Shown piece by piece: positions 20,072 through 55,338 of a DNA stretch of 64,000 nucleotides; positions within the stretch are counted from its first letter, which is position 1, and the number at the start of each line of letters is the position of its first letter. Source of the DNA: Pseudoscleropodium purum (lineage: Eukaryota > Streptophyta > Bryopsida > Hypnales > Brachytheciaceae); NCBI GenBank assembly GCA_963969395.1, contig OZ017796.1, forward strand, positions 13,456,501 to 13,520,500, given 5' to 3'. The notes under the pieces are model-generated. The model saw only the letters and a list, made by a program, of their open reading frames with translations, was not told the origin of the DNA and made no database searches. The translations under genes and the position numbers were made by a program.

Positions 20072-21093
20072 TGTCGCAGCACAGGGCACGTCAATTCCCC
20101 ATTATACTCACAAAAATCGCTCTAGAGTATAACTAAGTGACTCTAAAGATCGAACCCACGAGATCCTGTGAAGTATCTAGCTCTATTAAGCAGTTAAGCT
20201 AAGTCAGTATCCCAATCTTACTTTCCGGTCCTAGATCTAGAACCAGAAATACCACCACACCGGATAACTACAGACCGGATTACTCCTTCTTCCGGTCCTA
20301 CTAACTATCCGGTCTGTACAAATACCCAAATCCCAGGATCTCACAACTTCCGATCCTAGAAATCCGTTCTGACCAATCCGGTCCGGATGGTCATCCTGTA
20401 CCCGTAATCCTATCCGGTTTAGTTTTGCCTCTGTTTCACCATCAGAGGGGTCGCCGCTTAATTTTGAGAGTGGTAGGCCCACCACTCCTTCCGTGACTTA
20501 TAGTGGCTGAAGACCCACTGTCCTACCTTCTAAACTCCTAAGCTAATCCGGATCCGGTTTGGTCCTTCACAACAACCCAGATAGCAATCCGGGTCGTAGG
20601 TCACACAAAGACCCCACACTCGACCCTCTCGTACTACAACGACCTTGATGCTACTTCCGATCCATGCGAAGACAGGTGGTTACAAGTGCACCCGTCCGTT
20701 CCAACATCAACTAAAGTTCTTCCGTTACCCATACGGGTGGTGAGACCTCACAGGAGATCGGACACTCGACCGGATTTCCCACCCGGGAGTTCTAGCGCAG
20801 CTAAGGAATCCCTCCCTACCCGCCTAGCCTAACAACGGCTTTCTCACCCGGAATCTCAAACTCTAGACGTGCTGAGGAACTAAGTTCACTCCCAACTCTT
20901 CTGTACCTACTCCCATGCACCTAGGATCGGAAAATAAACACCAAGGGGAGAAATCACTTACAAACCAACTCGTACTATCCTAACTCCACATCATACAATC
21001 CTGTCGCGCTGGAGAGAGATACACAATGAGGAGAAAAGAAAGGTACAACAAGTTTGCAAAATGGACAACTCCCAATTCCCATCTTAGGAACCG

Positions 21094-21102
21094 ATTTATA
21101 TA
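21094..21102 (-). promoter_or_regulatory. Second TATA box in the LTR, downstream of the LTR-ORF
   Basis: TATATAAAT in sense orientation lies about 145 bp after the LTR-ORF stop. The same word in the same context (GTATATAAATCGGTT) occurs in copies B, C, D, E, F and H, while surrounding bases vary. It could be the promoter of the genomic gag-pol RNA, which would place the whole LTR-ORF in U3. Transcription start not verified. Confidence 0.45.
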
Positions 21103-21246
21103 CAAAGGGTCAAAACCCTAAAAGCACAAAAGGAGCGGAAAACCCGTGGGGGTCCGCCGCCACCCTAATCTAATTTCCGGTCTAACCTAATACTGTTGAG
21201 CCGGATCCGGATCCGCTCCTACTCCTAACTGAAATTAAAATCCTAT

Positions 21247-22905
21247 CTACCCTACAACTCTAGATCCTATCGTCGGGCTTCCGGTCTCCGGGACTAGCTC
21301 CTCGAAAACTTCACTCAAATTCCGGACCCGTTCCCCCTCCGCAGGATTCGGTCCGGGTGGAGACTCCAAGTCGATGGTGATATCCGGTCTCGTGCCCGGA
21401 GTCCCAGTCCGTGCAGACTTCTTGGACTCAGGAGTCCAATCCTTCCTATCCTTCGCCATAGTCGCGTCCGGAAAGAGGTCCGGTAGCGAGATGTCCGAAA
21501 GATGAATACCTTTGTCGCACGTCGCTCCCGTCAGCTTCCGGCTGCTCTCCTCAATCCGGTCCGCAGCCTTCCGGCCCTCCACCATTGCCGTCTCCACCTG
21601 CTCAGCGAAGTCGGCGAGAATCCGGACCATCCGGGAACCGGATAGTTTCTTCTCTTCGTGGATCTTCTCGTCGAAGAGCTTCGCTTTGGCGGCGGCCGTT
21701 CCGGTCTCTCCCAGGACCGCCTTGATCTGCTCGGCCACCTTCCGAGTCTCCTCCGCCATCTCCCGAGCGGCCGTCACGTCTTCCTGATAGGCAAAAAGTG
21801 TTGCCTTCAGTTTATCTACCTCCTCCTGCAACCGGCGGATCTCTGCGTCCTGCTTCCGGGTCTCTTCCGGATTCGTGATGCACTCCGCCACTTGTTCCGC
21901 CAATTTGCTGTTTGGTGCCGCACCCACCAACTTGCCGATCGCCTCAAGCGTCTTGTACTTGACCTCCCAATCCGCCCTGATGTTGCAGAGGACGTTGATC
22001 AGACCGTTGAACGGATCTTGCATATCCGGATCTCCCCCGGAATTGGTCTTCTCGGCTTCCGGTTTCTCCTCCGGGGCCGGTTTGTCTTGACTGGGAGGCG
22101 TCCCGCGCTTGTGTGGAGGCGTCAGCTTCTGTCGCTTGATCGGCGGCATCGGCTCCTCCTCTTCCTCGTTGGACTCCCGGTCTGACCCGGAATCGGATTC
22201 CGCCTCGTCATCCGTCTCCGACTCCCCATACTTCAGGAGCACTTCCTGCGTCTTCCACGCCCTCTCCTCCGTATCGGTGAGGACTTGGTTCTCCCGATAG
22301 AGGTGGAAGAGATAAGGGCACACTGAAGTGGCCCTTTTCTTCCCAACCCTACTAACGAGCTGGGCCACGAGATCGGAAATGATCCGTGCCCAATCCACTT
22401 TTCGGGTACCACTGAGGGCACCGAAAATGGTGTTGCCGAGGGTGATCGTCACCCTGGTCGGCTTTTCCGGGTGAAGAACCGGAACCAGGAATTGCAGGAG
22501 CCGACGGTGTCGGTCATCCAAGCAATCCTCGACCGCGTATCCGTCCTTCGGGTTGACGGCTCCCTTGAACTTCCCTCGGACAAACTCATCCTTCCGGCTC
22601 GCCATCCCCAAACCTCCTGCCCGTAAACCGTAAACCGCTCTCCACATCCCCTCGTTCCAGCTGACGGGAGTTCCTCTCACGGTGTTGTCAAACTGGTTGG
22701 ACAACTTTCCGAGGAGCTCCTTGACCATTCTCTCCTCCCTAAATCCCCAGGGTTTTTCGGCAAACCCTACGCAACCCATGGATTTGAGATCATCCATGAG
22801 TTGAGACTTTTCCGGCTCTGTGGAGGGAATAACCGGAATGACTTTCTGGAGCTTCACCTCGCCTCCAGAGGGACTCGCTTGTCTCGACCTACGTAGCGGA
22901 GGCAT
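21247..22905 (-). CDS. LTR-encoded protein, intact copy A (552 aa), function unknown
   Basis: This is the only complete stop-free copy in the window. The ATG at 22905 is the first usable start, because an in-frame TAG lies just upstream. Layout by residue: basic N terminus 1-20; conserved globular region about 20-215, with RGTPVSWNEG near 78, PEKPTRVTITLGNTIFG near 147 and YLFHLYRENQVLT near 200; acidic run 228-251; basic IKRQK patch about 256-260, a possible nuclear signal; proline/lysine-rich linker 261-286; helical region and long charged coiled coil about 300-457; conserved SGSRMVRILADF at 422-433; C terminus rich in Ser/Pro/Glu. I see no signal peptide, membrane segment, catalytic motif or zinc knuckle. 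The N-terminal region loosely recalls the 'putative plant transposon protein' domain found next to plant retroelements; that is a weak resemblance only. It sits in U3 of the LTR behind its own TATA box. Confidence 0.85.
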   Translation of the reverse strand: MPPLRRSRQASPSGGEVKLQKVIPVIPSTEPEKSQLMDDLKSMGCVGFAEKPWGFREERMVKELLGKLSNQFDNTVRGTPVSWNEGMWRAVYGLRAGGLGMASRKDEFVRGKFKGAVNPKDGYAVEDCLDDRHRRLLQFLVPVLHPEKPTRVTITLGNTIFGALSGTRKVDWARIISDLVAQLVSRVGKKRATSVCPYLFHLYRENQVLTDTEERAWKTQEVLLKYGESETDDEAESDSGSDRESNEEEEEPMPPIKRQKLTPPHKRGTPPSQDKPAPEEKPEAEKTNSGGDPDMQDPFNGLINVLCNIRADWEVKYKTLEAIGKLVGAAPNSKLAEQVAECITNPEETRKQDAEIRRLQEEVDKLKATLFAYQEDVTAAREMAEETRKVAEQIKAVLGETGTAAAKAKLFDEKIHEEKKLSGSRMVRILADFAEQVETAMVEGRKAADRIEESSRKLTGATCDKGIHLSDISLPDLFPDATMAKDRKDWTPESKKSARTGTPGTRPDITIDLESPPGPNPAEGERVRNLSEVFEELVPETGSPTIGSRVVG

Positions 22906-23086
22906 TCCCACTCGAAACTACCTCACTCTCTCCTAGCCGCACGTCCCGTTCCTCACTTCCTCTCTCCGATCTCAACCGGAAGCAAAACAGACAAAACACA
23001 AACGTCCAGACGCACAAACTCCAAAAACTCAACCGCGCGCTCTCAAGGTCGAGTTTCTAAAAGGGGGTGCAACAGTGAAAGCTCCT

Positions 23087-23095
23087 CCTTATATA
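23087..23095 (-). promoter_or_regulatory. First TATA box in the LTR, upstream of the LTR-ORF
   Basis: TATATAAGG in sense orientation lies about 275 bp into the LTR and about 180 bp before the LTR-ORF ATG. It is followed by a conserved leader containing TTGCACCCCCTTTTAGAAAC. Copies B, E and F have the same TATATAAGG; C, D and G have TATAAAAG at the same place. It is the likely promoter of the LTR-ORF mRNA. Confidence 0.6.
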
Positions 23096-23368
23096 GTCCC
23101 TGGACCCTTTCCGGTTTGTCATCATGAATCCGGTTTACCATCATTATTCGGTTCATCATCATAATCCGGTCCTAGACCTAATCCGTGTTGCATTCCGTTT
23201 CCGTCGTTAGTTACTCCTGACCGGATTAGATCCAAGAGGCCTACTACTTCACGTTCCGTGCTAATTCTGAGTTTTCCTTCCCCACCTAATCGGATCCGGT
23301 TAGCTAATGACTAGTTTCCGTTCCTATTTTGGTGTATACTAAGAAAATCAAAATTCTAAGCTGCGACA

Positions 23369-23383
23369 TTACCCCTTCCTCAT
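23369..23383 (-). other. Polypurine tract
   Basis: In sense orientation ATGAGGAAGGGGTAA ends exactly where the 3' LTR begins with TGTCGCAGC. It lies 21 bp after the pol stop codon. This is the plus-strand primer site and fixes the 3' LTR boundary upstream of the LTR-ORF. Confidence 0.85.
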
Positions 23384-23404: not shown

Positions 23405-26400
23405 TCATTGGCCTTCAGTCGAAGAAGTAGCCGCCGAATATTTTTTTGCCCTTGATCCGTTCACACGAGTGTCAAGCCACTGGCCCTGTAAATTCGCAAG
23501 TTGCAAGCACCCATTTTGAAAGATTTGAATGACTCGGAAAGGTCCCATCCATCGGGTATGCAATTTTCCTGGAAACTCTTTGTGACGGTTGTCATAAATT
23601 AGCACAAGACCGCCTTCCTGGATTCCATGATCAACTGGAAGTTTCCGGTCATAATCTTTCTTGCGTTTGAATTGCACTTCCATGGTTCTCTCAAGAGTTG
23701 CAATCCGGGTTTCCTCCAGTTCTTCAATCGCGAGGAGACGCGGAAGTATATCCATTCTGGTCTCCGCATTCCGGGCTGCCATGACTCGGAAAGTCTCCAC
23801 TTCTAATTCCACCCCATGAACTGTGTTTTGGCCAAAGACCAAAAAGTAGGGCGTTTTTCCGGTTGTGCTTTTCTCCGCCGTATTGTACGCATGCACGGCC
23901 GAAGGTAGTTTCCGGTCCCAATCCGTCTTGTGAGCGGAAACCATCTTGTTCAAGATCTTCCCAATAATTCCGTTCGCCCGCTCGGTTAATCCATTCGCCT
24001 TTGGATTATAAGGAGTCGTCTTCCGGTGCTTGATAAGATACCTGTTAGTTAGGTCGGAGATGACGTCATTGAGGAAATGGGTTCCTCTATCACTGACCAA
24101 CTCCAGTGGGTGACCAAATCGCATGAGGATTTCTTCAAACAAAAAGGTCGCGGAAGTCTCGGCATCGTTTTTCCGGGTTGCTCTGGCCTCCACCCACTTG
24201 GTCGCATAATCCGTGGCTAGGATTATGTACCTCTTCTTCCTAGCACTGACCGGAAAAATGGGTCCAATAAAGTCGATCCCCCATTTTTCAAACGGTGCTA
24301 AGGGAATTATGGGAGTGAGTGGCCAATGGTTCCGGAAAGATGGTGCTCCTGTCCGCTGACACTGATCGCAACTCCGAACAAAATTCCTCACATCCCTGTG
24401 TACATACGGCCACCAGTATCCGGCGGATCGGATCCGGTTCACCGTAGTAACAAAGGCAAAATGTCCTCCGGAACTCCCGCAATGGAGTGCCCGGATGACT
24501 TTCTTCCGGTCCGAAAGTTCCAAGCATCACCTAAGGACGTCATCTGCCCCTAACTTGAAAAGGACTCCCCTAATCATGGTATAAGGAGCCGCTTTTCTCT
24601 GAAAGATTTCTTTCTCCTCTAGACTCATCTGTTCCGGATATTTGGAATTCACTAAATAACTAATGATATCCCGGAACTCCGAAACAGACTCGTTGCTTAG
24701 GTGAAAAACTTCTATCAAGGGAAAATCCGGTTTCTCCATTTCAACCGGAATCTCCAGAGAATCCGGAAACTCATCCGGAAACTCAGCGGAAATATCCGCC
24801 ACGGATTCCTGTCCTCTTTGTCTCGAGAGGTAATCCGCGTTCGAGTTTGCTTTTCCGGGTTTCACTACGACCTCGTAATTAAACTCTTGTAAAAGCAAAA
24901 TCCATCTAGCAATCCGACCTGACAAATCCGGTTTGTTCACGAGGTATTTCAAGGAATCATGATCTGTGTGAAAAATTACCTTGTACCCTAGCAAATAATG
25001 TCGGAACTTCTTACAAGAATACACGACCGCCAGAGCTTCTCGTTCTGTGGTGGTGTAATTTCGTTCCGCCAAACTCATTTGCCTGCTCGCATAGTAAATC
25101 GGATTCTCACGCTTCTCCGTGTCGAACTGCCAAAGAATGGATCCGAGACACCAACCGGATGCGTCGATGGTGACATGGAACTCTTTGGTCCAATCCGGAA
25201 CGGAAAGGATCGGAGCTCTAGCAAGCTGAGTCTTCAGATCATCGAAGGCCTGCTGTCGCTTTCCGGTCCACACAAATTCTGTATCCTGTTTGAGTAGTTC
25301 CGTGAGAGGGATGGCCCTCTTGGCGTATCCGTCAATGAATCGACGGTAGTAGCCCACACACCCTAGAAACCCACGGATCTCCCTTACGCTCGTCGGAGGC
25401 AGCAAGGATAGAACCGCTCTCACCTTTTCCAAGTCCGCTTGTAATCCGGCTTGGCTCACCACGTGCCCCAGCAAAATTCCGGAACTCATTCCGAAAAAAC
25501 ACTTTCTGGGGTGTAATTTCAGATTGGTTTCCCGGCACCTTTGAAACGTCTTCCGCAAACATTCGAGATGAAGTTTCCGGTCGCTAAAAATTGCAAAGTC
25601 ATCAATGAAGACCTCAATGAAATGGCGGAGAAAATCCTTGAAAATGTCCATCATCAGCCGCTGGAAAGTTCCGGGTGCGTTGCACAGGCCAAACGGCATC
25701 CGGGTAAATGCGAAAGTTCCCCATTCTGTCGTGAACGTGGTCTTCAACTGATCCCTCCGCCGGATGAACACTTGGTTGTAACCAGAAAATCCGTCCAAAA
25801 AGCTGTAACATTCGTGTCCGGCCACGTGGTCCAAAATGATGTCAGTAAATGGAAGGGGAAAGTAATCCTTCTTTGTGGCTGTGTTCAATTTCCGGAAATC
25901 TTGACACACCCGGATCTTAACTTTCCCATCTGTTCCCAACTTCTTGGGAACCACCACAATAGGGGAAACCCACTCGGAATTGTTGACCGGATAGATGAAT
26001 CCGGTTTCCAATAACCGGTCGATTTCTTCCTTCACCATTAACGAGTACCTCGGGTTGAGTCGGTACTGTCGCTGACGGACCAGAATAGATCCTTCCGTCA
26101 AATCAATGTGATGCTCTCCTAAGTGAGGGGGGATTCCCTTTAGATCAGATGGCTCCCATGCAAAAATATCGAGATAATCCTGGAGAAGGTGAACGTAACC
26201 GGATTTCTCCATGCTTTGCATGAGCTTGCTCAAGTAAAAGCACTTGCCTGGTTCAACCTCCTCCTACTCATAATCGATGGGCGAGACGATCGGTTTGATC
26301 TTCTCTTCGTGAACCTCTTCCGGAACGGAAACAAAGTTTCCCCATTCCGGTCTCATCGTTTCCTCACTTACACCCGCGGGAAGGTTTCCATCTTGGATTT

Positions 26401-29134
26401 GTCGAGTGATCCACTCGGCTGTGAGCGGAACGCTTGACTCTCCTAAGGATCTATCTTCCACCATGGTACTGCTAGGCTTTTCCGGATCATGTTCCAACAC
26501 AGCATTGGAGAACCCAAAACTTTTCTCAGTTTTGTGTTCGAATGGATCCACATAATAGCTTGGAATCGACTCTTCCGAATCCGTCCAATCCGATGTGTAA
26601 CCATCCGAGTCGCTGGTTTCTCCTAAATGCTTTTCCGTGGACCAAGGTATCCGGATGGAAGGTTTTCCGACCACCAGTTCCTTGGTTCCCCAATCCACGA
26701 GTACTTGAGCAGAGTATAACCAAGGTCTACCCAGTAACATAGGAAAAGGTCTTCCTTTGTGCACACGGATGATGACATAGTTGAGTAGATAATCCGTTCC
26801 TCCAATCCGGGTTGGAACTTGCGAAAGTTTGCCAACCGGATGTACTCGAGATTGATCCGCCATCCGAAGGACTTGATCCATCGCTTCGATCGTGGTGAAT
26901 CCTAACTCAAATGCCGTGTCTTCCAACATCAAGTTGACTCCAGATCCGCCATCGATGGGAACCTTTGGAATCAGGCATCTTTCTATCTCTACACGGATCT
27001 CTGGAGCCCCAGAATCTTCCGGTTGGGAGAAGTTAACTGCCACCGCTGGGAGTTTCACCCTCTTCTTCCGTTTCCGTGTCCAGCTATCTCGGATCAGCTT
27101 CTGGTACATCACGTTGTCGTGCAGGAGCTGTCCAATCGTAACATTCGCCCGTTGATCTCGGATGTCCTGGATGATGTCATATTCATGCGTACGGATATCC
27201 GGATTGATAACCACTGGGGTGTTACTGAAACGAACCTGCTTCTTACTCGTCACCACATCCGGTCCAGAGATTTCCGTCCGAATCTCTGCACTGATGTCGA
27301 TCGGAATCCGGTTCCGGTCCACCCCTTCCTCAAAGTGAACTTCTTCCGGTTCTGGACTCCGCCTCTGAAAAACAGGATCAGAATCACTACTCGATTTCTG
27401 TCTCCTCCTCTACTTTTTCTTCGTCCCCCTTACAGCTCGTTCGGGTTGATTCCTGGTAGAACTGCGGGTCGATATCCGGTTTACCAAGCTCTCCGTCTCT
27501 GCCGGCAGTTCCACCTCGCATCGTCACTTGTTCGGATTCTCCGTTAAGGTTGAGTGGCCATAGTTGAGCGCGGTCTGCTCCCTTGGAAGAATTTGAACTT
27601 GTTTGTAAACCGGTCTTGGCTGTATGGGCTTCGCACACTGCTCCTCCTGATGCCCATACTCCTGGCAATTCTGGCACGGAAGAGTACGAGGAGCACCCTG
27701 CCCTGGTCCCCTGTTAGGACACGAGTTGGCATAATGTCCCGGTTCTCCACAGCCATAACAAATCACCACTTGTCTATCCGGGTAACCAGGGGCTCGCACG
27801 GGCTGCTGCATTACCAACCCCTGACTCGGTCCCGGTAAAAAGTTCCGGTTCAACATGTTGGACCGGGAAGGAATCGTGATCCCTTTTCCTCTACCATAGG
27901 TCGGCTGCACTTGGTAGATCTCCTCCTCTTCCTCGTTTGCTACGGTGTAGTAGATCTCTTCTTCTGGATACACATAGTGAACTTGCTTCTGGGCAGCTCG
28001 CTGGCATTCACTTGGATAGTGACCCGGTTCTCCACATCTTCCGCACCAGACATTGGATCGAGAAGTCGGAACGATCCGTCTCGGTTTCCGGTTCTCAGCC
28101 ATGTTGACCTTGATAGCCTCCAAAGACTCTTAGATGTTCTTCATCATCTTCTTGGAATCCGTGTCCTCCGTCTTCACTTTCACAACCCGTTTCTCTCTAG
28201 GACCCTTTGACTTGTGCGAACGTCGGGGAGGTGAAACACTCTGTTCATCATCCGAGCTCGATGAATCCGGATCGGAAACTTCCGTTCCAGAACTCTCGGA
28301 ACTGCTGTCCGAATCGGAAACCTTCTTACGATGCTTCAACTTCCGGTCGCCTTTCTTATTCTTCCCCTTTTCTTGCTTCTCGCTCCTTCTCAAGGACTTC
28401 TGGAGTGACTGAGCGGAATTCTCGTAATTAGCCGCAGCATCCATGGCATCTCTAAGTGTCCTAGGTCGCGTCTGACGAATCAGAAATCCCATAGACTCAG
28501 GTAATCCGGCAACGTACCATTCCACCTGCAGACTAGGAGCAATCTCCGTGGTCAGCTTCTAGATCAGCGCCTTCACCCTCTGGCCATACTTCCGCACGGA
28601 TTCGGATGATTTCATCGTTAGTGTACTGAGCCGTCCCAAGGCTCTGGCTTCTCCTCCTACCTCCCGGAAAGCTTGCAGGAAATCCGTTCTCAATTGATCC
28701 CAGTTATTCCGGATCGGATCGGAAATATCCTGATACCATTTAAGAGCTTCTCCCTTGAGCAATCCTTGGAAGATTCTTCGCTGGGCCGCCTCATTCTCCT
28801 GGTTGGCGAGTGCAGTAGACTCAAACTCGCACAGCCAGTCATCCGCATCTTGGCTTCCTTCACCTTTAAAACGCTTGTATCTCAATCGAGTCATGACGTC
28901 TTCGTCCTCTCGGAACGGATCTTCTCTGTCCGGTTCCGGATCTAGATCGGAGACTGTAGGCGTATGACCAGATCTCGGATTCTCGCTTTCTCCCGCGGAT
29001 GCAGGCACAAGAATCGGACGGTTAACCGGATCTTGCAGATCCGGTTCACTATGATCCGGTTCAGGCGATTCTTCCATTCGTTCTCTTCTTCTCAATCGCT
29101 CGGACGTTCTCGTATTCCTTGTTCCGCTTCTCAT
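23405..29134 (-). pseudogene. gag-pol polyprotein, one frame with six stops
   Basis: A single 1,910-codon frame runs from ATG 29134 to the stop at 23405 without a frameshift. In order: retrotransposon Gag (EALKWYQDISDP), three CCHC knuckles (CGRCGEPGHYPSEC, CYGCGEPGHYANSC, CQNCQEYGHQEEQC), aspartic protease (IDGGSGVNLM), reverse transcriptase with FIDD at the catalytic site, RNase H (TIDAS, TEREAL, HTDHDSL), and integrase with an HHCC zinc finger ending in CDQCQ and a DDE triad (GIDFIGP, VSDRGTHF, LTERANG). No chromodomain follows. In-frame stops: TAG 28561-28559, TAA 28132-28130, TGA 27526-27524, TAG 27412-27410, TAG 26266-26264, TGA 24529-24527. Each is one C-to-T change from CAG, CAA or CGA, consistent with cytosine deamination. 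Confidence 0.93.
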
Positions 29135-29250: not shown

Positions 29251-29270
29251 GATCCCCGGCAACGGCGCCA
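29251..29270 (-). other. Primer binding site for tRNA-Asp
   Basis: In sense orientation TGGCGCCGTTGCCGGGGATC is complementary to the last 20 bases of plant tRNA-Asp(GUC), including CCA. It lies 11 bp after the 5' LTR end, a spacing seen in Athila/Tat-type elements. Confidence 0.88.
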
Positions 29271-29281
29271 GATTTTTGTCA

Positions 29282-29637
29282 TGTCGCAGCACAGGGCAAG
29301 TCAATTCCCCATTATACTCACAAAAATCGCTCTAGAGTATAACTAAGTGACTCTAAAGATCGAACCCACGAGATCCTGTGAAGTATCTTGTTCTATTAAG
29401 TAGTTAAGCTCAGTCAGTATGCCAATCTTACTTTCCGGTCCTAGATCTAATCCGTGTTGCATTCCGTTTCCGTCGTTAGTTACTCCTGACCGGATTAGAT
29501 CCAAGAGGCCCACTACTTCACGTTCCGTGCTAATTCTGAGTTTTCCTTCCCCACCTAATCGGATCCGGTTAGCTAATGATTAGTTTCCGTTCCTATTTTG
29601 GTGTATACTAAGAAAATCAAAATTCTAAGCTGCGATA
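29282..29637 (-). repeat. 5' LTR of element A, internally deleted to 356 bp
   Basis: It keeps both LTR ends but lacks exactly 2,941 bp relative to the 3' LTR. The junction (29435-29449) is one copy of the 15-bp direct repeat that flanks the coding block in the full LTR, so the loss is explained by recombination or slippage between those repeats. Both TATA boxes and the LTR-ORF are gone. The last base pair step reads GCGATA instead of GCGACA. The remaining sequence differs from the 3' LTR at only a few positions. Confidence 0.9.
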
Positions 29638-29750
29638 GGGGGACAGGCGGATGCTGCGTCCGCCAGGACGCAAATGTCAGCGGACGCTGCGGACACAACG
29701 TTCGCGTCCAGACGTCCGCGTCTGGACGTCCGGACGTCTTGACAATCCTG
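29638..29750 (-). mobile_element. hAT-family terminal fragment
   Basis: The right edge reads CGTCCGGACGTCTTGACAA then TCCTG, which is the inverted form of the left end of the hAT MITE at 49199 with two mismatches. It also shares the GGGGGACAGGCGGA sub-terminal block. It is cut off abruptly where element A begins. Confidence 0.7.
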
Positions 29751-30162: not shown

Positions 30163-30615
30163 TGTCGCAGCTTAAAATTTTGATTTTCTTAGTATACACC
30201 AAAATAGGAACGGAAACTAGTCATTAGGGAACCGGATCCGATTAGGTGGGGAAGAAAAACTCAAAATTAGCACGGAACGTGAAGCAGTGGGCCTCTTGGA
30301 TCTAATCCGGTCAGGAGTAACTAACGACGGAAACGGAATGCAACACGGATTAGGTCTAGGACCGGATTATGATGATGAACCGAATAATGATGGTAAACCG
30401 GATTCATGATGACAAACCGGAAAGGGTCCAGGGACTATATAAGGAGGAGCTTTCACTGTTGCACCCCCTTTTAGAAACTCAACCTTGAGAGCGCGCGGTT
30501 GAGTTTTTGCGTTGTGCATTTGTATTCTGCTTGTTTTGATTCCGGTTGAGATCGGAGAGAGAACGTGAAGAACGGGACGTGCGGCTAGGAGAGAGTGAGG
30601 TAGATTGGAGTGGGA

Positions 30616-32274
30616 ATGCCTCCACTACATAGGTCTAGACCAGCGAGTCCCTCTGAAGGTGAGGTGAAGCTCCGGAAAGTTATTCCGTTTATTCCCTCCA
30701 CAGAGCCGGAAAAGTCTCAACTCATGGATGATCTCAAATCCATGGGTTGCCTCGGGTTTGCCAAAAAACCCTGGGGTTTTAGGGAGGAAAGAATGGTCAA
30801 GGAGCTCCTCGGAAAGCTGTCCAACCAGTTTGACAACACCGTGAGAGGAACTCTCGTCCGCTGGAACGAGGGAATGTGGAGAGCGGTTTACGGTTTACGG
30901 GCAGGAGGTTTAGGGATGGCGAATCGGAAGGATGAGTTTGTCCGAGGGAAGTTCCAGGGAACCGTCAACCCGAAGGACGGATACGCGGTCGAGGATTGCA
31001 TGGATGACCGACACCGTCGGCTCCTGCAATTCCTGGTTCCGGTGCTTCACCCGGAAAAGCCGACCAGGGTGACGATCACCCTCGGCAACACCATTTTCGG
31101 TGCCCTCAGTGGTACCCGGAAAGTGGACTGGGCACGGATCATTTCCGATCTCGTGGCCCAGCTAGTTAGTAGGGTTGGGAAGAAGAGGGCCACTCCAGTG
31201 TGCCCTTACCTCTTCCACCTCTATCGAGAACACCAAGTCCTCACCGACGCATAGGAGAAGGTGTGGAGGACTCAAGAAGTCCTCCTGAAGTATGGGGAGT
31301 CGGAAACGGATGACGAGGCCGAATCCGATTCCGGGTCAGACCGGGAGTCGAGCGAGGAAGAGGAGGAGCCGATGCCGCCGATCAAGCAACAGAAGTTGAT
31401 GCCTCCACACAAGCACGGGACGCCTCCCGGTCAAGACAGACCGGCCCCGGAAGAGAAACCGGAAGCCGAGAAGACCGTTTCCGGGGAAGACCCGGAAATG
31501 CAAGATCCGTTCAACGGTCTTATCAACGTCCTCTGCAACATCAGGGCGGATTGGGAGGTCAAGCACAGGACGCTTTCGGCGATCGGAAAGTTGGTAGGTG
31601 CGCCACCGGACAGTAAGTTGGCGGAACAGGTGGCGGAGTGCATCACCAATCCGGAAGAGACCCGGAAATAGGAAGCGGAGATCCGTCAGTTACAGGAGGA
31701 GGTGGACACCCTGAAGGCAACTCTTTTTGCCTATCGGGAAGACGTGACGGCCACCCGGGAGATGGCGGAGGAGACTCGGAAGATAGCCGAGCGAATCAAG
31801 GCGACCCTAGAAGAAACCGGAACGGCCGCCGCCAAAGCGAAGCTCTTCGACGAGAAGATCCACGAAGAGAAGAAACTATCCGGTTCCCGGATGGTCCGGA
31901 TTCTCACCGACTTCGTTGAGCAGGTGGAGACGGCAATGGTAGAGGGGCGGAAGGCTGTGGACCGGATTGAGGAAAGCAGCCGGAAGCTGACTGGAGCGAC
32001 GTGCTCCAAGGGGATACATCTTTCGGATATCTCGTTACCGGATATCTTTCCAGAGGCAACCATTCAGAAGGATAGGAAGGTTTGGACTCCTGAGTCCAAG
32101 AAGTCTGCACGGGCTGAGACTCCGGGCACGAGACCGGATATCACAATCGACCTGGAGTCTTCACCCGAATCTAATCCTGCGGAGGGGGAACGGATCCGGA
32201 ATTTGAGTGAAGTCTTTGAGGAGCTAGTTCCAGAAATCGGAAGCCCGACAATAGGATCTAGAGTTGTAGAGTAG
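30616..32274 (+). pseudogene. LTR-ORF copy B, two stops
   Basis: The full-length frame, collinear with copy A, is interrupted by TAG at codon 213 (31252-31254; Glu in A) and TAG at codon 352 (31669-31671; Gln in A, CAG to TAG). No frameshift. Subfamily-2 residues are present, for example CSKGIHLSDISLPDIF where copy A has CDKGIHLSDISLPDLF. The acidic run, KQQK patch and coiled coil are preserved. Confidence 0.9.
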
Positions 32275-32948
32275 ATAGGATTTTGGATTTCAGTTAGGAG
32301 TAGGAGCGGATCCGGATCCGGCTCAACAGTATTAGGTTCGACCGGAAGTTAGATTAGGGTGGCGGCGGACCCCCACGGGTTTTCCGCTCCTTTTTGTGCT
32401 TTTAGGGTTTTTTCCCTTTGTATATAAATCGGTTTCCGCGATGGGAATTGGGAGTTGTTCATTTTGCAAACTTCTTGTACCTTTCTATTCTCTTCATTGT
32501 GTGTCTTTCTCCAGCGCGACAGGATTGTATGATGTGGAGTTAGGATAGTACGAGTAGGTTTGCGAGTGATTTCTCCCCTTGGTGTTTATTTTCCGATCCT
32601 AGCTGCATGTGAGTAGGTATCGAAGAGTTGGGAGTGAACTTAGTTCCTCAGCACGTCTAGAGTTTGAGATTCCGGGTGAGAAAGCCGTTGTTAGGCTAGG
32701 CGGGTAGGGAGGGATTCCTTAGCTGCGCTAGAACTCCCGGGTGGGAAATCCGGTCGAGTGTCCGATCTCCTGTGAGGTCTCACCACCCATATGGGTAACG
32801 GAAGAACTTTAGTTGATGTTGGAATGGACGGGTGCACTTGTAACCACCTGTCTTCGCACGGATTGGAAGTAGCATCAAAGTCGTTGTAGTACGAGAGGAT
32901 CGAGTGTGGGGTCTTTGTGTGACCTACAACCCGGATTGCTATCTGGGT

Positions 32949-35900
32949 TGTCGCAGCTTAGAATTTTGATTTTCTTAGTATACACCAAAATAGGAACGGA
33001 AACTAGTCATTAGCTAACCGGATCCGATTAGGTGGGGGAGGAAAACTCAGAATTAGCACGGAACGTGAAGTAGTGGGCTTCTTGGATCTAATCCGGTCAG
33101 GAGTAACTAACGACGGACACGGAATGTAACACGGATTAGGTCTAGGACCGGATGATGATGATGAACCGGATTATGATGGTAAACCGGATTCATGATGACA
33201 AACCGGAAAGGGTCCAGGGACTATAAAAGGAGGAGCTTTCACTGTTGCACCCCCTTTTAGAAACTCGACCTTGAGCGTGCGCGGTTGAGTTTTTGTCGTT
33301 TGTGCGTCTGAGCGTTTGTGTTTTGTCTGTTCTGCTTCCGGTTGAGATCGGAGAGAGGAAGTGAGGAACGGGACGTGCGGCTAGGAGAGAGTGAGGTAGA
33401 TGTGAGTGGGAATGCCTCAGCTACGTAGGTCGAGGCAAGCGAGTCCCTCTGGAGGCGAGGTGAAGCTCCGGAAAGTCATTCCGGTTATTCCCTCCACAGA
33501 GCCGGAAAAGGCTGAACTCATGGATGATCTCAGATCCATGGGTTGCGTAGGGTTTGCCGAGAAACCTTGGGGTTTTAGGGAGGAGAGAATGGTCAAGGAG
33601 CTCCTCGGAAAGTTGTCCAACCAGTTTGACAACACCGTGAGGGGAGCTCCCGTCAGCTGGAACGAGGGGATGTGGAGAGCGGTTTACGGTTTCCGGGCAG
33701 GAGGTTTGGGAATGGCGAGCCGGAAGGATGAGTTTGTCCGAGGGAAGTTCAAGGGAGCCGTCAACCCGAAGGACGGATACGCGGTCGAGGATTGCTTGGA
33801 CGACCGACACCGTCGGCTCCTGCAATTCCTGGTTCCGGTTCTTCACCCGGAAAAGCCGACCAGGGTGACGATCACCCTGGGCAACACCATTTTCGGTGCC
33901 CTCAGTGGTACCCGGAAAGTGGATTGGGCACGGATCATTTCCGATCTCGTGGCCCAGCTTGTTAGTAGGGTTGGGAAGAAAAGGGCCACTCCAGTGTGCC
34001 CTTACCTCTTCCACCTCTATCGGGAGAACCAAGTCCTCACCAACATAGAGGAGAAGGCGTGGAAGACGTAGGAAGTGCTCCTGAAGTATGGGGAGTCGGA
34101 GACGGATGACGAAGCGGAATCCGATTCCGACTCAGACCGGGAGTCCAGCGAGGAAGAGGAGGAGCCGATGCCGCCGATCAAGCGACAGAAGCTGACGCCT
34201 CCACACAAGCGCGGGACGCCTCCCGGTCAAGACAAACCGGCCCCGGAGGAGAAACCGGAAGCCGAGAAGACCAATTCCGGGGGAGATCCGGATATGCAAG
34301 ATCCGTTCAACGGTCTGATCAACGTCCTCTGCAACATCAGGGCGGATTGGGAGGTCAAGCACAGGACGCTTGCGGCAATCGGCAAGTTGGTGGGTGCTGC
34401 ACCGGACAGCAACTTGGCGGAACAAGTGGCGCAATGCATCACGAATCCGGAAGAGACCCGGAAGCAGGAAGCCGAGATCCGCCGGTTGCAGGAGGAGGTA
34501 GATAAACTGAAGGCAACACTTTTCGCCTATCAGGAAGACGTGACGGCCGCTCGGGAGATGGCGGAGGAGACTCGGAAGGTGGCCGAGCAGATCAAGACGG
34601 TCCTGGGAGAGACCGGAACGGCAGCGGCCAAGGCGAAGCTCTTCGACGAGAAGATCCACGAAGAGAAGAAACTATCCGGTTCCCGGATGGTCCGGATTCT
34701 CGCGGACTTCGCCGAGCAGGTGGAGACGGCAATGGTGGAGGGGCGGAAGGCAGCGGACCGGATCGAGGAGAGCAGCCGGAAGCTGACGGGAGCGACGTGC
34801 GACAAAGGTATTCACCTTTCGGACATCTCTCTACCGGACCTCTTTCCGGATGCAACTATGGCGAAGGACAGGAAGGATTGGACTCCTGAGTCCAAGAAGT
34901 CTGCACGGACTGGGACTCCGGGCTCGAGACCGGATATTACCATCGACTTGGAGTCTCCACCCGGATCGAATCCTGCGGAGGGGGAACGGGTCCGGAATTT
35001 GAGTGAAGTTTTCGAGGAGCTAGTCCCGGAGGTCGGAAGCCCGACGATAGGATCTAGAGTTGTAGGGTAGATAGGATTTTAATTTCAGTAAGGAGTAGGA
35101 GCGGATCCGGATCCGGCTCAATAGTATTAGGTTAGACCGGAAGTTAGATTTAGGTGGCGGCGGACCCCCACGGGTTTTCCGCTCCTTTTTGTGCTTTTAG
35201 GGTTTTGACCCTTTGTATATAAATCGGTTCCTGAGATGGGAATTGGGAGTTGTTCATTTTGCAAACTTCTTGTACCTTTCTATTCTCTTCGTTGTGTATC
35301 TCTCTCCAGCGCGACAGGATTGTATGATGTGGAGTTAGGATAGTACGAGTTAGTTTGTAAGTGATTTCTCCCCTTGGTGTTTATTTTCCGATCCAAGGTG
35401 CATGTGAGTAGGTACCGAAGAGTTGGGAGTGAACTTAGTTCCTCAGCACGTCTAGAGTTTGAGATTCCGGGTGAGAAAGCCGTTGTTAGGCTAGGCGGGT
35501 AGGGAGGGATTCCTTAGCTGCGCTAGAACTCCCGGGTGGGAAATCCGGTCGAGTGTCCGATCTCCTGTGAGGTCTCACCACCCGTATGGGTAACGGAAGA
35601 ACTTTAGTTGATGTTGGAACGGACGGGTGCACTTGTAACCACCTGTCTTCGCACGGATCGGAAGTAGCATCAAGGTCGTTGTAGTACGAGAGGATCGAGT
35701 GTGGGGTCTTTGTGTGACCTACGACCCGGATTGCTATCTGGGTTGTTGTGAAGGACCAAACCGGATCCGGATTAGCTTAGGAGTCTAGAAGGTAGGACAG
35801 TGGGTCTTCAGCCACTATAAGTCACGGAAGGAGTGGTGGGCCTACCACTCTCAAAATTAAGCGGCGACCCCTCTGATGGTGAAACAGAGGCAAAACCAAA

Positions 35901-36246
35901 CCGGATAGGATTACGAGTACAGGATGACCATCCCGACCGGATTGGTCAGGACGGATTTCCAGGATCGGAAGTCGTGAGATCCTGGGATTTGGGTATTTGT
36001 ACGGACCGGATAGTTAGTAGGACCGGAAGAAGGAGTAATCCGATCTGTAGTTATCCGGTGTGGTAGTATTTCTGGTTCTAGATCTAGGACCGGAAAGTAA
36101 GATTGGGATACTGACTTAGCTTAACTGCTTAATAGAGCTAGATACTTCACAGGATCTCGTGGGTTCGATCTTTAGAGTCACTTAGTTATACTCTAGAGCG
36201 ATTTTTGTGAGTATAATGGGGAATTGACCTGCCCTGTGCTGCGACA
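32949..36246 (+). mobile_element. Solo LTR C (3,298 bp) nested in LTR B
   Basis: It runs from TGTCGCAGCTTAG to GTGCTGCGACA and is flanked by a perfect 5-bp duplication, TGGGT, at 32944-32948 and 36247-36251. No PBS, PPT or internal region is present, so it is a clean solo LTR. The TATA box at 33222-33229 is TATAAAAG. Confidence 0.93.
33412..35070 (+). pseudogene. LTR-ORF copy C, one stop at codon 220
   Basis: Complete 553-codon frame with one interruption, TAG at 34069-34071 (codon 220). The otherwise almost identical copy G has CAG here. Downstream coding sequence is intact to the normal GTAGGGTAG end. If the stop is fully effective, the product is a 219-residue N-terminal domain ending just before the acidic region. 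Copy D has the same stop. Confidence 0.9.
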
Positions 36247-39055
36247 TGGGTTGTTGTGAAGGACCAAACCGGATCCGGATTAGCTTAGGAGTTTAGGAAG
36301 TAGGACAGTGGGTCTTCAGCCACTATAAGTCACGGAAGGAGTGGTGGGCCTACCACTCTCAAAATTAAGCGGGGACCCCTCTGATGGTGAAACAGAGGCA
36401 AAACTAAACCGGATAGGATTACGAATACAGGATGACCATCCCGACCGGATTGGTCAGGACGGATTTCCAGGACCGGAAGTTGTGAGATCCTGGGATTTGG
36501 GGTATTTGTACAGACCGGATCGTTAGTAGGACCGGAAGAAGGAGTAATCCGGTCTATAGTTATCCGGTGTGGTGGTATTTTTGGTTCTAGATCTAGGACC
36601 GGAAAGTAAGATTGGGATACTGACTGAGCTTAACTGGTTAATAGAGCTAGATACTTCACAGGATCTCGTGGGTTCGATCTTTAGAGTCACTTAGTTATAC
36701 TCTAGAGCGATTTTTGTGAGTATAATGGGGAATTGACCTGCCCTGTGCTACGACAGTCTTCATGGCACTATATAGTTCAACTAACTTTTCATTCATTCAA
36801 TGTAAAATTTGAAATTAAAAAAGGTAGCCTTCCTATATGACCAAATTTATGAATTGTTGGTAAATGATATTTTTGTACAAAGATATAAGCTAAAATGTGC
36901 AAAAATTCACGAAAGGATTGTGACTTTTAATATATGTACCCAAATATTCACGTTGCATTGTATATAAAGCAATTGTAAGAAGGTAGTTGAATAAAAATTC
37001 TACTATTAAATTGAATTAGTTGACGTCTAATCACTTAGTAAACCGCTAAATGTCCAAGTCCTTGCAAGTGTGTTTTGGCTATTGAAAAAGAGCATGGACT
37101 TATAGTTATCCCCAATGAAGCAAATTGTTCTTTTTTCAAAATCTCATGGTATAGATGTTTAACTTCTAAAGTTCTTTTCACTAAAAACACTTCAAAATTA
37201 CTAGTAGTAGTGCAAATACCAAGTCTTGGAAGAAAAATCCTTTTGAGCATATGTAACCGTAGGATCTTGTAGTAAATTAGTTGGAAAAGATGTGGAAAAA
37301 ATTTTAGACAAATCCACCATTTGGATTGTAAGATATTAGATATTGAGTGTTTCATTTAAGGGGGCTACTCAATTATGTCTATTAATGAACAATTGGTAGG
37401 CTAACAAACCTAACTTAGCATGTATTTTAATATTTGTTGCAATTGTTTTAGGAATATTATAACATAATACTATTATAATATTCTTATAAATGATATAGTA
37501 CTAAATCATTTCAAAATCAACAACATTCAAATACAATCTGTCAATCTTGTCTTCCATACTCCTTTAATGATATATATATATAAATATATATACATATATA
37601 AAATATATTAGATAAATCAACATGAACAAATCAATGATTATATATTTCATAGATCTATTTTTCATCAATCAAATAAGAGTGCATGTGCAAATATAGACAA
37701 AGATGGTTTCTCCATTTGTTCCCAAAAATTAAATAAACAAATAGAGAAAGATATGAAGTGAATGTTACTTGGACAATTGAAGGGAAAGAAATTGAAGTAC
37801 TCAATTGCATTTTATTAAATTGAAAAATTGCATGTGGATGACATGAATTAATCTTCATAGATGCTAAACTCATACGAGTTGCATTTCAACATTTATGATT
37901 TATGCAATTGATTGAATTGAAAGCTCTTGTAATTACATTTTCAAATTTTCGATTCAATCATTCAAATTTGCAAGAGTGATTTATGATAGATTTATAACTT
38001 TAAATGTGAAAGCATTCAATGCCTTTATGCGTTTGTTCATTTTCTATATTAATTTTAAATAAATAATATTTTTTTTGTATAACATATGCGTAAACCATTG
38101 CATTAAAAAAAAAAAAACTAAGAGCCAAGCCAAATAGGCTAGTCAAATGAAGAAAACAAGAGAACAAGAGCCCTACGAGAAAGCAAATGAAAAAAAAGAA
38201 AATATCAAAAGGATTCAAAGGAAGAAACAAAATGCATTTTTGCAAGACCGTAGAATACATAATGTGATAATGATTTCAAAATCCAAACAGAAATATATTT
38301 TCTATTTCAATGAGAGTCAAAAATGAACTCCCCTACTCTCAAAGATTGTACAATGTACATGTTATACAAAACAAACAGATAACAGAAAGAGTAGAAGACA
38401 TCGTTTATCATGATTGAAAATTGAAATGATTTTTTCTTTCTATATAGAATATTTTATGAAATGTAACAATGTATTTAATTATCATAGTAATTGGTAGAAA
38501 TCTTTGTGCAATACATAGAAACATTTCATTCATGTGAAATTTTTTCATTTATTTAGGATTAAAATTAAAGTATTATATTCTACAAAGTACAAACCGAAAA
38601 CAATATCATATACCTAAGTTCAAAAGTTTGCAATTGTTTCGTAAATTCATTTTGAAAACTCAAACAAAGAAATATTTTATAATCAATATCTTGTTCATTT
38701 CAATCATTTCAAAATTCGAATTCCGAATTCAATTCCTATTTATAATAGAAATTATGTTTGTCAATTTTTTAGATCTTTAAACAATGAACCCTCTTTTTTA
38801 AAATTAATATTTAAAAACATCTGAAATAAGAATATTGGAATTACCCTTCAAAATAAATATAGCACATGTATAAGTGTATAATGTATTCTACTTAAGCAAC
38901 TCAAGTAACGAATTTTTCTATGTTTTAAAGGAAAAATATAGCCATATATAATTTGAAAGTTAAAACATTGATTCTTTTTCTTTGTTTTCAAATCTAATCA
39001 AAATTTCATTAAAAAATATGAAAGACTCAATGTTCATTTGAAGATCGTGATGCAC
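34728..39055. repeat. Left arm of a large inverted duplication
   Basis: This segment recurs as its reverse complement at 59673-64000. Paired positions always sum to 98,728 at every point I checked (LTR borders, small open frames, simple repeats), so there is no net indel over 4,328 bp. All stretches I compared are identical. The arm holds part of LTR C, the end of LTR B and 2.3 kb of AT-rich DNA. Its outer limit is hidden, because the right arm runs off the window. Confidence 0.92.
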
Positions 39056-40349: not shown

Positions 40350-43300
40350 TGTCGCAGCACAGGGCAGGTCAATTCCCCATTATACTCACAAAAATCGCTC
40401 TAGAGTATAACTAAGTGACTCTAAAGATCGAACCCACGAGATCCTGTGAAGTATCTAGCTCTATTAACCAGTTAAGCTCAGTCAGTATGCCAATCTTACT
40501 TTCCGGTCCTAGATCTAGAACCAGAAATACTACCACACCGGGTAACTACACACCGGATTACTCCTTCTTCCGGTCCTACTAACTATCCGGTCCGTACAAA
40601 CACCCAAATCCCAGGATCTCACAACTTCCGATCCTGGAAATCCGTCCTGACCAATCCGGTCGGGATGGTCATCCTGTACTCGTAATCCTATCCGGTTTGG
40701 TTTTGCCTCTGTTTCACCATCAGAGGGGTCGCTGCTTAATTTTGAGAGTGGTAGGCCGACCACTCCTTCCGTGACTTATAGTGGCTGAAGACCCACTGTC
40801 CTACCTTCTAAACTCCTAAGCTAATCCGGATCCGGTTTGGTCCTTCACAACAACCCAGATAGCAATCCGGGTCGTAGGTCACACAAAGACCCCACACTCG
40901 ACCCTCTCGTACTACAACGACCTTGATGCTACTTCCGATCCATGCGAAGACAGGTGGTTACAAGTGCACCCGTCCGTTCCAACATCAACTAAAGTTCTTC
41001 CGTTACCCATACGGGTGGTGAGACCTCACAGGAGATCGGACACTCGACCGGATTTCCCACCCGGGAGTTCTAGCGCAGCTAAGGAATCCCTCCCTACCCG
41101 CCTAGCCTAACAACGGCTTTCTCACCCGGAATCTCAAACTCTAGACGTGCTGAGGAACTAAGTTCACTCCCAACTCTTCGGTACCTACTCACATGCACCT
41201 TGGATCGGAAAATAAACACCAAGGGGAGAAATCACTTACAAACCAACTCGTACTATCCTAACTCCACATCATACAATCCTGTCGCGCTGGAGAGAGATAC
41301 ACAATGAGGAGAAAAGAAAGGTACAACAAGTTTGCAAAATGGACAACTCCCAATTCCCATCTTAGGAACCGATTTATATACAAAGGGTCAAAACCCTAAA
41401 AGCACAAAAAGGAGCGGAAAACCCGTGGGGGTCCGCCGCCACCTAAATCTAACTTCCGGTCTAACCTAATACTATTGAGCCGGATCCGGATCCGCTCCTA
41501 CTCCTAACTGAAATTAAAATCCTATCTACCCTACAACTCTAGATCCTATCGTCGGGCTTCCGACCTCCGGGACTAGCTCCTCGAAGACTTCGCTCAAATT
41601 CCGGACCCGTTCCCCCTCCGCAGGATTCGGTCCGGGTGGAGACTCCAGGTCGATGGTGATATCCGGTCTCGTGCCCGGAGTCCCAGTCCGTGCAGACTTC
41701 TTGGACTCAGGAGTCCAATCCTTCCTGTCCTTCGCCATAGTTGCATCCGGAAAGAGGTCCGGTAGAGAGATGTCCGAAAGGTGAATACCTTTGTCGCACG
41801 TCGCTCCCGTCAGCTTCCGGCTGCTCTCCTCGATCCGGTCCGCTGCCTTCCGCCCCTCCACCATTGCCGTCTCCACCTGCTCGGCGAAGTCCGCGAGAAT
41901 CCGGACCATCCGGGAACCGGATAGTTTCTTCTCTTCGTGGATCTTCTCGTCGAAGAGCTTCGCCTTGGCCGCTGCCGTTCCGGTCTCTCCCAGGACCGTC
42001 TTGATCTGCTCGGCCACCTTCCGAGTCTCCTCCGCCATCTCCCGAGCGGCCGTCACGTCTTCCTGATAGGCGAAAAGTGTTGCCTTCAGTTTATCTACCT
42101 CCTCCTGCAACCGGCGGATCTCGGCTTCCTGCTTCCGGGTCTCTTCCGGATTCGTGATGCATTGCGCCACTTGTTCCGCCAAGTTGCTGTCCGGTGCAGC
42201 ACCCACCAACTTGCCGATTGCCGCAAGCGTCCTGTGCTTGACCTCCCAATCCGCCCTGATGTTGCAGAGGACGTTGATCAGACCGTTGAACGGATCTTGC
42301 ATATCCGGATCTCCCCCGGAATTGGTCTTCTCGGCTTCCGGTTTCTCCTCCGGGGCCGGTTTGTCTTGACCGGGAGGCGTCCCGCGCTTGTGTGGAGGCG
42401 TCAGCTTCTGTCGCTTGATCGGCGGCATCGGCTCCTCCTCTTCCTCGCTGGACTCCCGGTCTGAGTCGGAATCGGATTCCGCTTCGTCATCCGTCTCCGA
42501 CTCCCCATACTTCAGGAGCACTTCCTACGTCTTCCACGCCTTCTCCTCTATGTTGGTGAGGACTTGGTTCTCCCGATAGAGGTGGAAGAGGTAAGGGCAC
42601 ACTGAAGTGGCCCTTTTCTTCCCAACCCTACTAACAAGCTGGGCCACGAGATCGGAAATGATCCGTGCCCAGTCCACTTTCCGGGTACCACTGAGGGCAC
42701 CGAAAATGGTGTTGCCCAGGGTGATCGTCACCCTGGTCGGCTTTTCCGGGTGAAGAACCGGAACCAGGAATTGCAGGAGCCGACGGTGTCGGTCGTCCAA
42801 GCAATCCTCGACCGCGTATCCGTCCTTCGGGTTGACGGCTCCCTTGAACTTCCCTCGGACAAACTCATCCTTCCGGCTCGCCATTCCCAAACCTCCTGCC
42901 CGGAAACCGTAAACCGCTCTCCACATCCCCTCGTTCCAGCTGACGGGAGCTCCCCTCACGGTGTTGTCAAACTGGTTGGACAACTTTCCGAGGAGCTCCT
43001 TGACCATTCTCTCCTCCCTAAAACCCCAAGGTTTCTCGGCAAACCCTACGCAACCCATGGATCTGAGATCATCCATGAGTTCAGCCTTTTCCGGCTCTGT
43101 GGAGGGAATAACCGGAATGACTTTCCGGAGCTTCACCTCGCCTCCAGAGGGACTCGCTTGCCTCGACCTACGTAGCTGAGGCATTCCCACTCACATCTAC
43201 CTCACTCTCTCCTAGCCGCACGTCCCGTTCCTCACTTCCTCTCTCCGATCTCAACCGGAAGCAGAACAGACAAAACACAAACGCTCAGACGCACAAACGA

Positions 43301-43647
43301 CAAAAACTCAACCGCGCACGCTCAAGGTCGAGTTTCTAAAAGGGGGTGCAACAGTGAAAGCTCCTCCTTTTATAGTCCCTGGACCCTTTCCGGTTTGTCA
43401 TCATGAATCCGGTTTACCATCATAATCCGGTTCATCATCATCATCCGGTCCTAGACCTAATCCGTGTTACATTCCGTGTCCGTCGTTAGTTACTCCTGAC
43501 CGGATTAGATCCAAGAAGCCCACTACTTCACGTTCCGTGCTAATTCTGAGTTTTCCTTCCCCACCTAATCGGATCCGGTTAGCTAATGACTAGTTTCCGT
43601 TCCTATTTTGGTGTATACTAAGAAAATCAAAATTCTAAGCTGCGACA
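40350..43647 (-). mobile_element. Solo LTR D (3,298 bp) inserted in the hAT transposase
   Basis: In plus coordinates it starts TGTCGCAGCACAGGG and ends AAGCTGCGACA, so it is in minus orientation. A perfect 5-bp duplication, AAACC, flanks it (40345-40349 and 43648-43652). It is very close to LTR C in sequence and length. Confidence 0.94.
41526..43184 (-). pseudogene. LTR-ORF copy D, same stop as copy C
   Basis: Complete frame, ATG at 43184, with TAG at codon 220 in exactly the context seen in C (AAGACG-TAG-GAAGTG). It differs from C at a handful of residues, for example TSVCPYLF instead of TPVCPYLF and LESPPGPNP instead of LESPPGSNP. D and C have different target duplications, so this allele inserted at least twice. 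Confidence 0.9.
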
Positions 43648-51909: not shown

Positions 51910-52068
51910 TGTCGCAGCTTAAAATTTTGATTTTCTTAGTATGCACCAAAATAGGAACGGAAACTAGCCATTAGGGAACCGGATCCGATTAGGTGGAGAA
52001 AGAAAACTCAAAATTAGCACAGAACATGAAATAGTGGGCCTCTTGGATATATCCCGGTCAGGAGTAAC

Positions 52069-55000: not shown

Positions 55001-55338
55001 CACAAACGAAAAAACTCAACCGCGCGCTCTCAAGGTCAAGTTTCTAAAAGGGGGTGCAACAGTGAAAGCTCCTCCTTATATAGTCTCTGGACCCTTTCCG
55101 GTTTCGTCATCATGAATCCGGTTCATCATCATAATCCGGTCCTAGACCTTATCCGTGTTGTATTCCGTTTCCGTCGTTAGTTACTCTTGACCGGATTAGA
55201 TCCAAGGGGCCCACTACTTCACGTTCCGTACTAATTTCGAGTTTTCCGTCTCCACCTAATCGGATCCGGTTCCCTAATGACTAGTTTCCGTTCCTATTTT
55301 GGTGTATACTAAGAAAATCAAAATTTTAAGCTGCGACA
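52069..55338 (-). mobile_element. Solo LTR E (3,270 bp) nested in LTR K/F
   Basis: In plus coordinates it runs from TGTCGCAGCACAGGG to AAGCTGCGACA, opposite in orientation to its host LTR. It is flanked by a perfect 5-bp duplication, GTAAC (52064-52068 and 55339-55343). The host sequence resumes in register after it. Confidence 0.93.
53251..54909 (-). pseudogene. LTR-ORF copy E, one stop at codon 182
   Basis: ATG at 54909 (MSPLRRSRPASPSGGE). TAG at 54366-54364 replaces Gln182 (CAG to TAG) in the ISDLVAQLVSRVG segment. The rest is open to the normal end. Subfamily-2 residues are present (CSKGIHLSDISLPDIF, VFGEDTEVQDPF). Confidence 0.9.

Follow-up and report, generated by a model that had tools for sequence, protein, structure and literature searches.

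This report concerns a gene that lies inside the long terminal repeat (LTR) of a Ty3/gypsy retrotransposon in Pseudoscleropodium purum. The stretch analysed, hereafter the window, comprises 64,000 nucleotides of contig OZ017796.1 (our contig C40; host genome 313 Mb) and holds a minus-strand element whose 3' LTR encloses an open reading frame (ORF) of 552 codons. The LTR gene is real and conserved, and is found in element-linked as well as in solo LTRs; of this we are practically certain. On balance, we also judge it probable that this is a young Ty3/gypsy LTR gene whose product has a sequence-specific DNA-binding function like that of VANC, which is encoded by the Mutator-like VANDAL transposons of Arabidopsis.

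The LTR gene in the window and in the host genome

The window element is arranged in the order 5' LTR, primer binding site (PBS), gag, knuckles, reverse transcriptase (RT), integrase, polypurine tract (PPT) and 3' LTR. Its parts are:

20072..23368 (-), 3' LTR of the Ty3/gypsy element, 3,297 bp, with ends TGTCGCAGC...GCTGCGACA
21247..22905 (-), LTR ORF, 552 amino acids, including the stop at 21247-21249; basic globular N-domain, acidic stretch, PPIKRQK patch, coiled coil
23090..23095 (-), TATA box 1 (CTATATAAGG), 190 nt ahead of the ORF ATG, present in 50 of 51 aligned copies
21097..21102 (-), TATA box 2 (TGTATATAAAT), about 145 nt past the ORF stop, found in 48 of 51 copies and presumed to be the promoter of the genomic RNA
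23369..23383 (-), PPT, adjoining the 3' LTR
23405..24523 (-), integrase frame (H2C2, rve), no chromodomain match
24527..26233 (-), RT and RNase H frame
26264..27322 (-), frame located between nucleocapsid and RT; presumed to be protease by position alone, without a Pfam match
27524..28123 (-), nucleocapsid frame with CCHC knuckles
28559..29134 (-), gag frame (Retrotrans_gag), broken off ahead of the knuckles
29253..29270 (-), PBS TGGCGCCGTTGCCGGGGA, with an 11-nt spacer to the 5' LTR end
29282..29638 (-), 5' LTR, shortened by deletion to about 354 nt, without either TATA box and without the ORF; outer end decayed

The ORF reads from 22905 to 21250, in the same orientation as gag-pol and wholly within the 3' LTR, as a preliminary description of this DNA had claimed. 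That description also set the PPT and the PBS directly against the LTR ends, which holds for the PPT, whereas a spacer separates the PBS from its LTR. The LTR layout is TATA box 1, ORF, TATA box 2 and then about 1 kb to the PBS. The LTR ends TGTCGCAGC/GCTGCGACA have 14 matches in the window against 0.15 expected. The element itself is decayed, its gag-pol being split over separate, broken frames, and no target site duplication (TSD) was found around it. Its 5' LTR is the long LTR reduced to its first and last parts, which meet at a 16-bp overlap, and is best read as the result of a deletion between short repeats. Since this LTR has no ORF, the suggestion that the window element carries the ORF in both LTRs found no support, and the window copy alone could not prove an LTR gene.

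A genome search with the ORF produced 2,684 first-look candidates, of which the 78 best were scored; 68 of these have no stop. Forty-eight of the 78 (the window's own, seven further loci and then 40 more) were read through, and all 48 align with the LTR from end to end (locus L017 is 2 nt short). Perfect 5-bp TSDs surround 32 of them, so that those copies look like solo LTRs, and two adjoin internal sequence. At locus L052, a 3,304-bp LTR lies inside a tandem element with the PPT before it and the PBS after it; its ORF is intact at 552 amino acids, 528 of which are identical to the window ORF. At locus L038, a 5' LTR with an open ORF is followed by the PBS and gag. A search with the RT (77 scored out of 1,069 candidates) placed 39 of the 77 matches, as counted from those listed, in a stop-free frame of 1,372 amino acids. 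In three tandem pairs of pol copies the spacing is 9,216 or 9,217 bp, the combined length of an internal region and a single 3.3-kb LTR. Two complete elements, of which 181 bp were read at each end, are 12,520 bp in total, with TSDs (CATAT and CCTGT) on the outside only and LTR ends on both sides at the positions predicted by a 3,304-bp LTR. By length, these require two 3.3-kb LTRs each, and it is from length that the ORF is placed in all four. L052, with its intact ORF between PPT and PBS, and the 12,520-bp elements, by their length, bear out the proposal that an extra ORF has become an LTR gene. Short LTRs with the ORF outside them, named in the preliminary description as the arrangement that would refute it, were not met with in L052 or in the two 12,520-bp elements.

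The predominance of TSD-flanked copies standing alone would also suit a 3.3-kb independent DNA transposon with 9-bp inverted ends, lying beside gag-pol by chance. We hold this to be extremely improbable: the ends of the unit adjoin a PPT or PBS in L001, L038 and L052, and L052 together with the 12,520-bp elements, which have LTR ends on both sides and TSDs outside only, refutes it.

Deletions in the window 5' LTR and in L051 (C49:10249256-10258255) indicate that loss of the ORF from element-linked LTRs also occurs. L051 is an inverted element half beside L038; from its LTR about 1.6 kb is gone, and most of the ORF with it. Contig C49 (12.7 Mb) holds 19 of the 78 scored ORF matches (3.2 expected) and 8 of 63 near-full RT matches (2.6 expected); small and chromosome-sized, it is possibly a sex chromosome or one rich in repeats.

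The assignment to Ty3/gypsy follows from gag, RT, RNase H and integrase lying between LTRs with RT ahead of integrase, from the PBS and PPT beside the LTRs, and from the 5-bp TSDs around the two complete elements (read at the ends, not in the LTR interiors). In the one decayed copy of the window, the integrase frame gave no chromodomain match, and only RT-linked RNase H families were matched, without the extra aRH RNase H of the Tat clade. On that test the element is neither a chromovirus nor a Tat element, and it is apparently a non-chromovirus Ty3/gypsy. The PBS TGGCGCCGTTGCCGGGGA is presumably of the tRNA-Asp type. That type fits the non-chromovirus primers reported in the available part of PMC6317226, where an additional aRH RNase H domain is given as the mark of the Tat clade.

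On the sense strand of the 3.3-kb window LTR, TATAWA occurs at two sites only, and these flank the ORF; no AATAAA signal was seen. In the simplest reading, TATA box 1 would drive the ORF and TATA box 2 the genomic RNA. If genomic RNA does start at TATA box 2, the ORF lies in U3 and would be transcribed separately from TATA box 1. Since both ends receive a copy of U3, the gene would be present twice in a complete element and still once in a solo LTR. The earlier statement that solo LTRs retain both a promoter and a coding sequence stands for the coding sequence, TSD-flanked copies with both TATA boxes being common in the sample; it is from the TATA boxes alone that we infer an LTR composed of promoter plus gene.

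Selection on the ORF and its decay

The substitution pattern indicates that the LTR ORF is under purifying selection. Eight window copies, not picked by score, were compared in 28 pairs with stop codons skipped. The ratio of nonsynonymous to synonymous substitution rates (dN/dS) is 0.13-0.35 in all 27 computable pairs, with dS up to 0.54; the remaining pair (copies D and H, listed below) is without change. The genome sample comprised 48 aligned copies, namely 51 less one diverged copy and two near-duplicates, and the neutral expectation was taken from the noncoding LTR. Relative to it, singletons have a nonsynonymous to synonymous ratio of 0.36, and variants in at least three copies one of 0.20; both values are biased downward because the sample was mostly picked by protein score. 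A dN/dS near 1, which the preliminary description would have taken as contrary evidence, appears neither in these shared variants nor in the window pairs.

The LTR copies in the window, other than those of the element above, are:

30163..32948 (+), LTR copy C, first part; ORF with two stops (codons 213 and 352); split by D
32949..36246 (+), solo LTR D, inserted in C; TSD TGGGT; ORF stop at codon 220
36247..36755 (+), LTR copy C, second part
40350..43647 (-), solo LTR E; TSD AAACC; ORF stop at codon 220
51910..52068 (+), LTR copy interrupted by F, first part; ORF stop at codon 220 and a 20-nt insertion
52069..55338 (-), solo LTR F; TSD GTAAC; ORF stop at codon 182
55339..57562 (+), LTR copy interrupted by F, second part
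57563..59674 (+), LTR copy G, ending 7 nt short of the ORF end; aligned part without an in-frame stop
61973..62481 (-), LTR part holding the H insertion
62482..64000 (-), LTR copy H, cut at the window edge; last fifth of the ORF only

The ORF can be aligned in C, D, E, F, the F-interrupted copy, G and H. The claim that every sufficiently complete copy contains it therefore holds for its presence and fails for its openness, given the stops in C, D, E, F and the interrupted copy. It is free of indels in five of the six window copies with full coverage (the 3' LTR, C, D, E, F and the interrupted copy); the exception is the F-interrupted copy, with a 3-nt insertion and the frame-shifting 20-nt insertion. 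No ORF indels were found in the 51 aligned copies, which were chosen mostly by score. Ten of these 51 have a premature stop, either TAG (codons 182, 220, 352 and 374) or TGA (codon 110). Programmed read-through at codon 220, where D, E and the interrupted copy share a stop, was considered and rejected in favour of recurrent CAG to TAG change, because this codon is CAG in 45 of the 51 copies, CAA in two and TAG in just four. Such a change is in line with C-to-T decay after insertion. Window segments 34728-39055 and 59673-64000 form a 4.3-kb inverted duplication of 99.98% identity, LTR parts included, which reflects either a segmental event of very recent date or the assembly itself.

A search for relatives of the 552-amino acid protein gave 146 at E<=0.001 among 7,996 scored candidates; none was confirmed in viral or in bacterial/archaeal contigs. 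Among the 120 listed, identity to the LTR protein is 32-71%, and the first 228 residues are 47-79% identical across 68 aligned relatives. Two decayed and diverged second-family relatives lie in the window itself, at 15455-16696 (-) and from 50042 to about 51170 (+). They show 29-39% amino acid identity to the LTR ORF by tblastn, together with profile matches, and are 77% identical to each other in DNA; the TGTCGCAGC end nearest to them (51910) is part of another LTR copy.

Stops in several copies, a frameshift in one and the absence of the ORF from two element-linked LTRs could be taken to mean that the ORF is a dispensable passenger, and that the excess of CCGGA described below is a mutational or codon-pair habit of the element. 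The low dN/dS already largely refutes such a passenger, the conservation among the listed relatives also counts against it, and we consider it very improbable.

The CCGGA motif and the predicted protein

The element is rich in the palindrome [AT]CCGG[AT]. The noncoding LTR, 1,638 nt in all, holds 19 copies (11-13 per kb), the ORF 14 (8.4 per kb) and the internal region 48 (8.1 per kb). Elsewhere, six were counted in window positions 1-15000 (0.4 per kb) and 10 in positions 44001-51000 (1.4 per kb), where a decayed relative lies; sequence flanking the fetched copies has 1.7 per kb. Summed over the four element parts, the motif occurs 81 times, and three control palindromes alike in composition (CGCG, GCGC or GGCC set in the same frame) occur 13 times together. 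In each of the two noncoding parts, the excess was matched by none of 1,000 shuffles. In the six coding frames, CCGGA occurs 104 times against 49.2 expected (z 9.6; 300 synonymous-codon permutations) and AACCGGA 21 times against 4.2 expected (z 9.8; synonymous shuffles). Frame by frame, the excess of [AT]CCGG[AT] was equalled in 1 of 1,000 shuffles for the LTR ORF, 0 for integrase, 0 for RT, 1 for the presumed protease, 146 for nucleocapsid and 93 for gag, and is thus clear in four of the six. CpG is high throughout the element (observed/expected 0.95-0.98), which would suit the mutational habit considered above; the rarity of the control palindromes speaks against it.

The noncoding motif positions are largely common to the LTR subfamilies (18 of 20 in comparison W3-C and 18 of 19 in W3-F). 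Motif columns change at 0.017 as against 0.087 (W3-C) and 0.103 (W3-F) for other C/G columns, and at 0.025 against 0.051 in W3-D, part of the gap being due to the A/T positions that the motif includes. Within the family, shared variants are depleted at CHG sites of the motif (p 0.003) and not at its CpG sites (p 0.77); for all C/G sites p is 0.065, and for all sites 0.049. An excess in coding and noncoding sequence alike points to a signal at the DNA level, as would be expected for an element-specific DNA-binding reader, and we infer that the LTR protein itself may read [AT]CCGG[AT].

Two other features were noted in the same part of the window as the decayed relative. A pair of 62-nt direct repeats (47169-47230 and 49338-49399; 92% identical), rich in CCGGAC/CGGACG, flanks 2.1 kb and possibly represents the ends of another element. 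An ORF of 254 amino acids at 44691-45455 (+) resembles, as judged by eye, the C-terminal part of hAT transposase.

Sequence searches of the LTR protein against solved structures gave weak matches only, and none for the N-domain. With Foldseek, neither the full-length model (PDB and viral structures) nor the N-domain model (PDB) had a match at E<=0.001, and VIA-align of the full-length model returned coiled-coil matches throughout, among the 50 listed. For the predicted N-domain model, the best structural match is VANC21 (structure 9lnj), the sole notable one and a DNA-bound protein. The DUF1985 signature is missing from the window protein, and DUF1985 is not among the 25 of 35 families listed as weakly matched by the relatives; a genome search for it gave no match, its controls being equally silent.

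An RNA-binding assembly factor might equally combine a coiled coil with a basic domain, and the extra protein of Cer1 is needed for nuclear export of genomic RNA according to the available part of PMC10309623. The LTR protein might accordingly be an accessory factor that works on RNA or on particles, whether in Rev/CERV-like export, as a Gag co-factor or in packaging, with CCGGA as a binding or packaging signal in RNA or a replication by-product. The motif is found in both orientations and also upstream of TATA box 2, however, which is unsuited to a strand-specific RNA signal, and the match of the modelled N-domain to a DNA-bound protein does not favour such a factor either; we think it quite unlikely. 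A Tax-like activator of its own LTR promoters, recruiting the transcription machinery without any role in silencing, would share the DNA-binding and motif evidence with a VANC-like protein, and the acidic stretch beside the N-domain would agree with it. This we regard as unlikely, since motifs spread throughout the coding sequence, rather than clustered at the two TATA boxes, are more in keeping with a protein that covers the whole element than with one that activates promoters.

Proposed role and comparison with known systems

A VANC-like self-targeting role is, in our view, the best-supported function, and we hold it with moderate confidence. The basic N-domain would read the CCGGA-type motif dispersed over the whole element, and the coiled coil would let the protein multimerise on clustered sites. 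The acidic linker, with its patch resembling a nuclear localization signal, would recruit host factors by which LTR copies stay unmethylated or active, and the family would have in its solo LTRs a dispersed set of self-recognising helper genes. Perhaps the LTR has been built with an anti-silencing gene and a genome-wide array of binding sites, CCGGA being also written into the gag-pol codons, so that host deletion multiplies solo LTRs which are both helper and target; we offer this larger picture tentatively, as a good possibility that falls short of being probable.

Solo LTRs are usually viewed as non-coding promoter remnants, and many of those found here still hold an open, conserved gene. 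If its product is a self-targeting anti-silencer, it would show a retrotransposon staying active after host deletion and would provide an independent test of motif-protein coevolution outside Arabidopsis, with a CpG-containing motif that is open to direct testing of methylation sensitivity.

Three kinds of system invite comparison. The superantigen gene of mouse mammary tumour virus is an ORF within the U3 region of the LTR. The gene described here would share that location and differs in that the virus is an animal retrovirus and its superantigen a cell-surface protein; we know of no relation between the two proteins.

Conserved extra ORFs are also known from the plant elements Grande (gene23), Retand (ORF4) and RIRE2. 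In the parts available of PMC7264820 and PMC11963269, such ORFs are reported in the internal region, and for Grande gene23 a nuclear product and an own promoter are given (PMC7264820). The present ORF is likewise conserved across most copies. Theirs, however, are antisense between pol and the 3' LTR, whereas this one is sense and lies in the LTR, so that it is duplicated and survives in solo LTRs. A search of open-licence PMC literature on LTR-borne ORFs, extra ORFs and anti-silencing found no plant LTR-encoded protein in titles or abstract openings.

The third parallel is VANC. Both proteins are transposon-encoded, the modelled N-domain has VANC21 as its best structural match, and the element is rich in a short repeated motif, as VANC targets are; the available part of PMC5735166 describes such target motifs as accumulating in VANC's own transposons. 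The present system differs in that the gene is carried by an LTR retrotransposon, within the LTR itself, that the window protein is without the DUF1985 signature, and that the motif contains CpG, is dispersed and occurs in coding sequence as well. If the proposed role is true, sequence-specific anti-silencing, as described for the VANDAL DNA transposons of Arabidopsis, extends to LTR retrotransposons.

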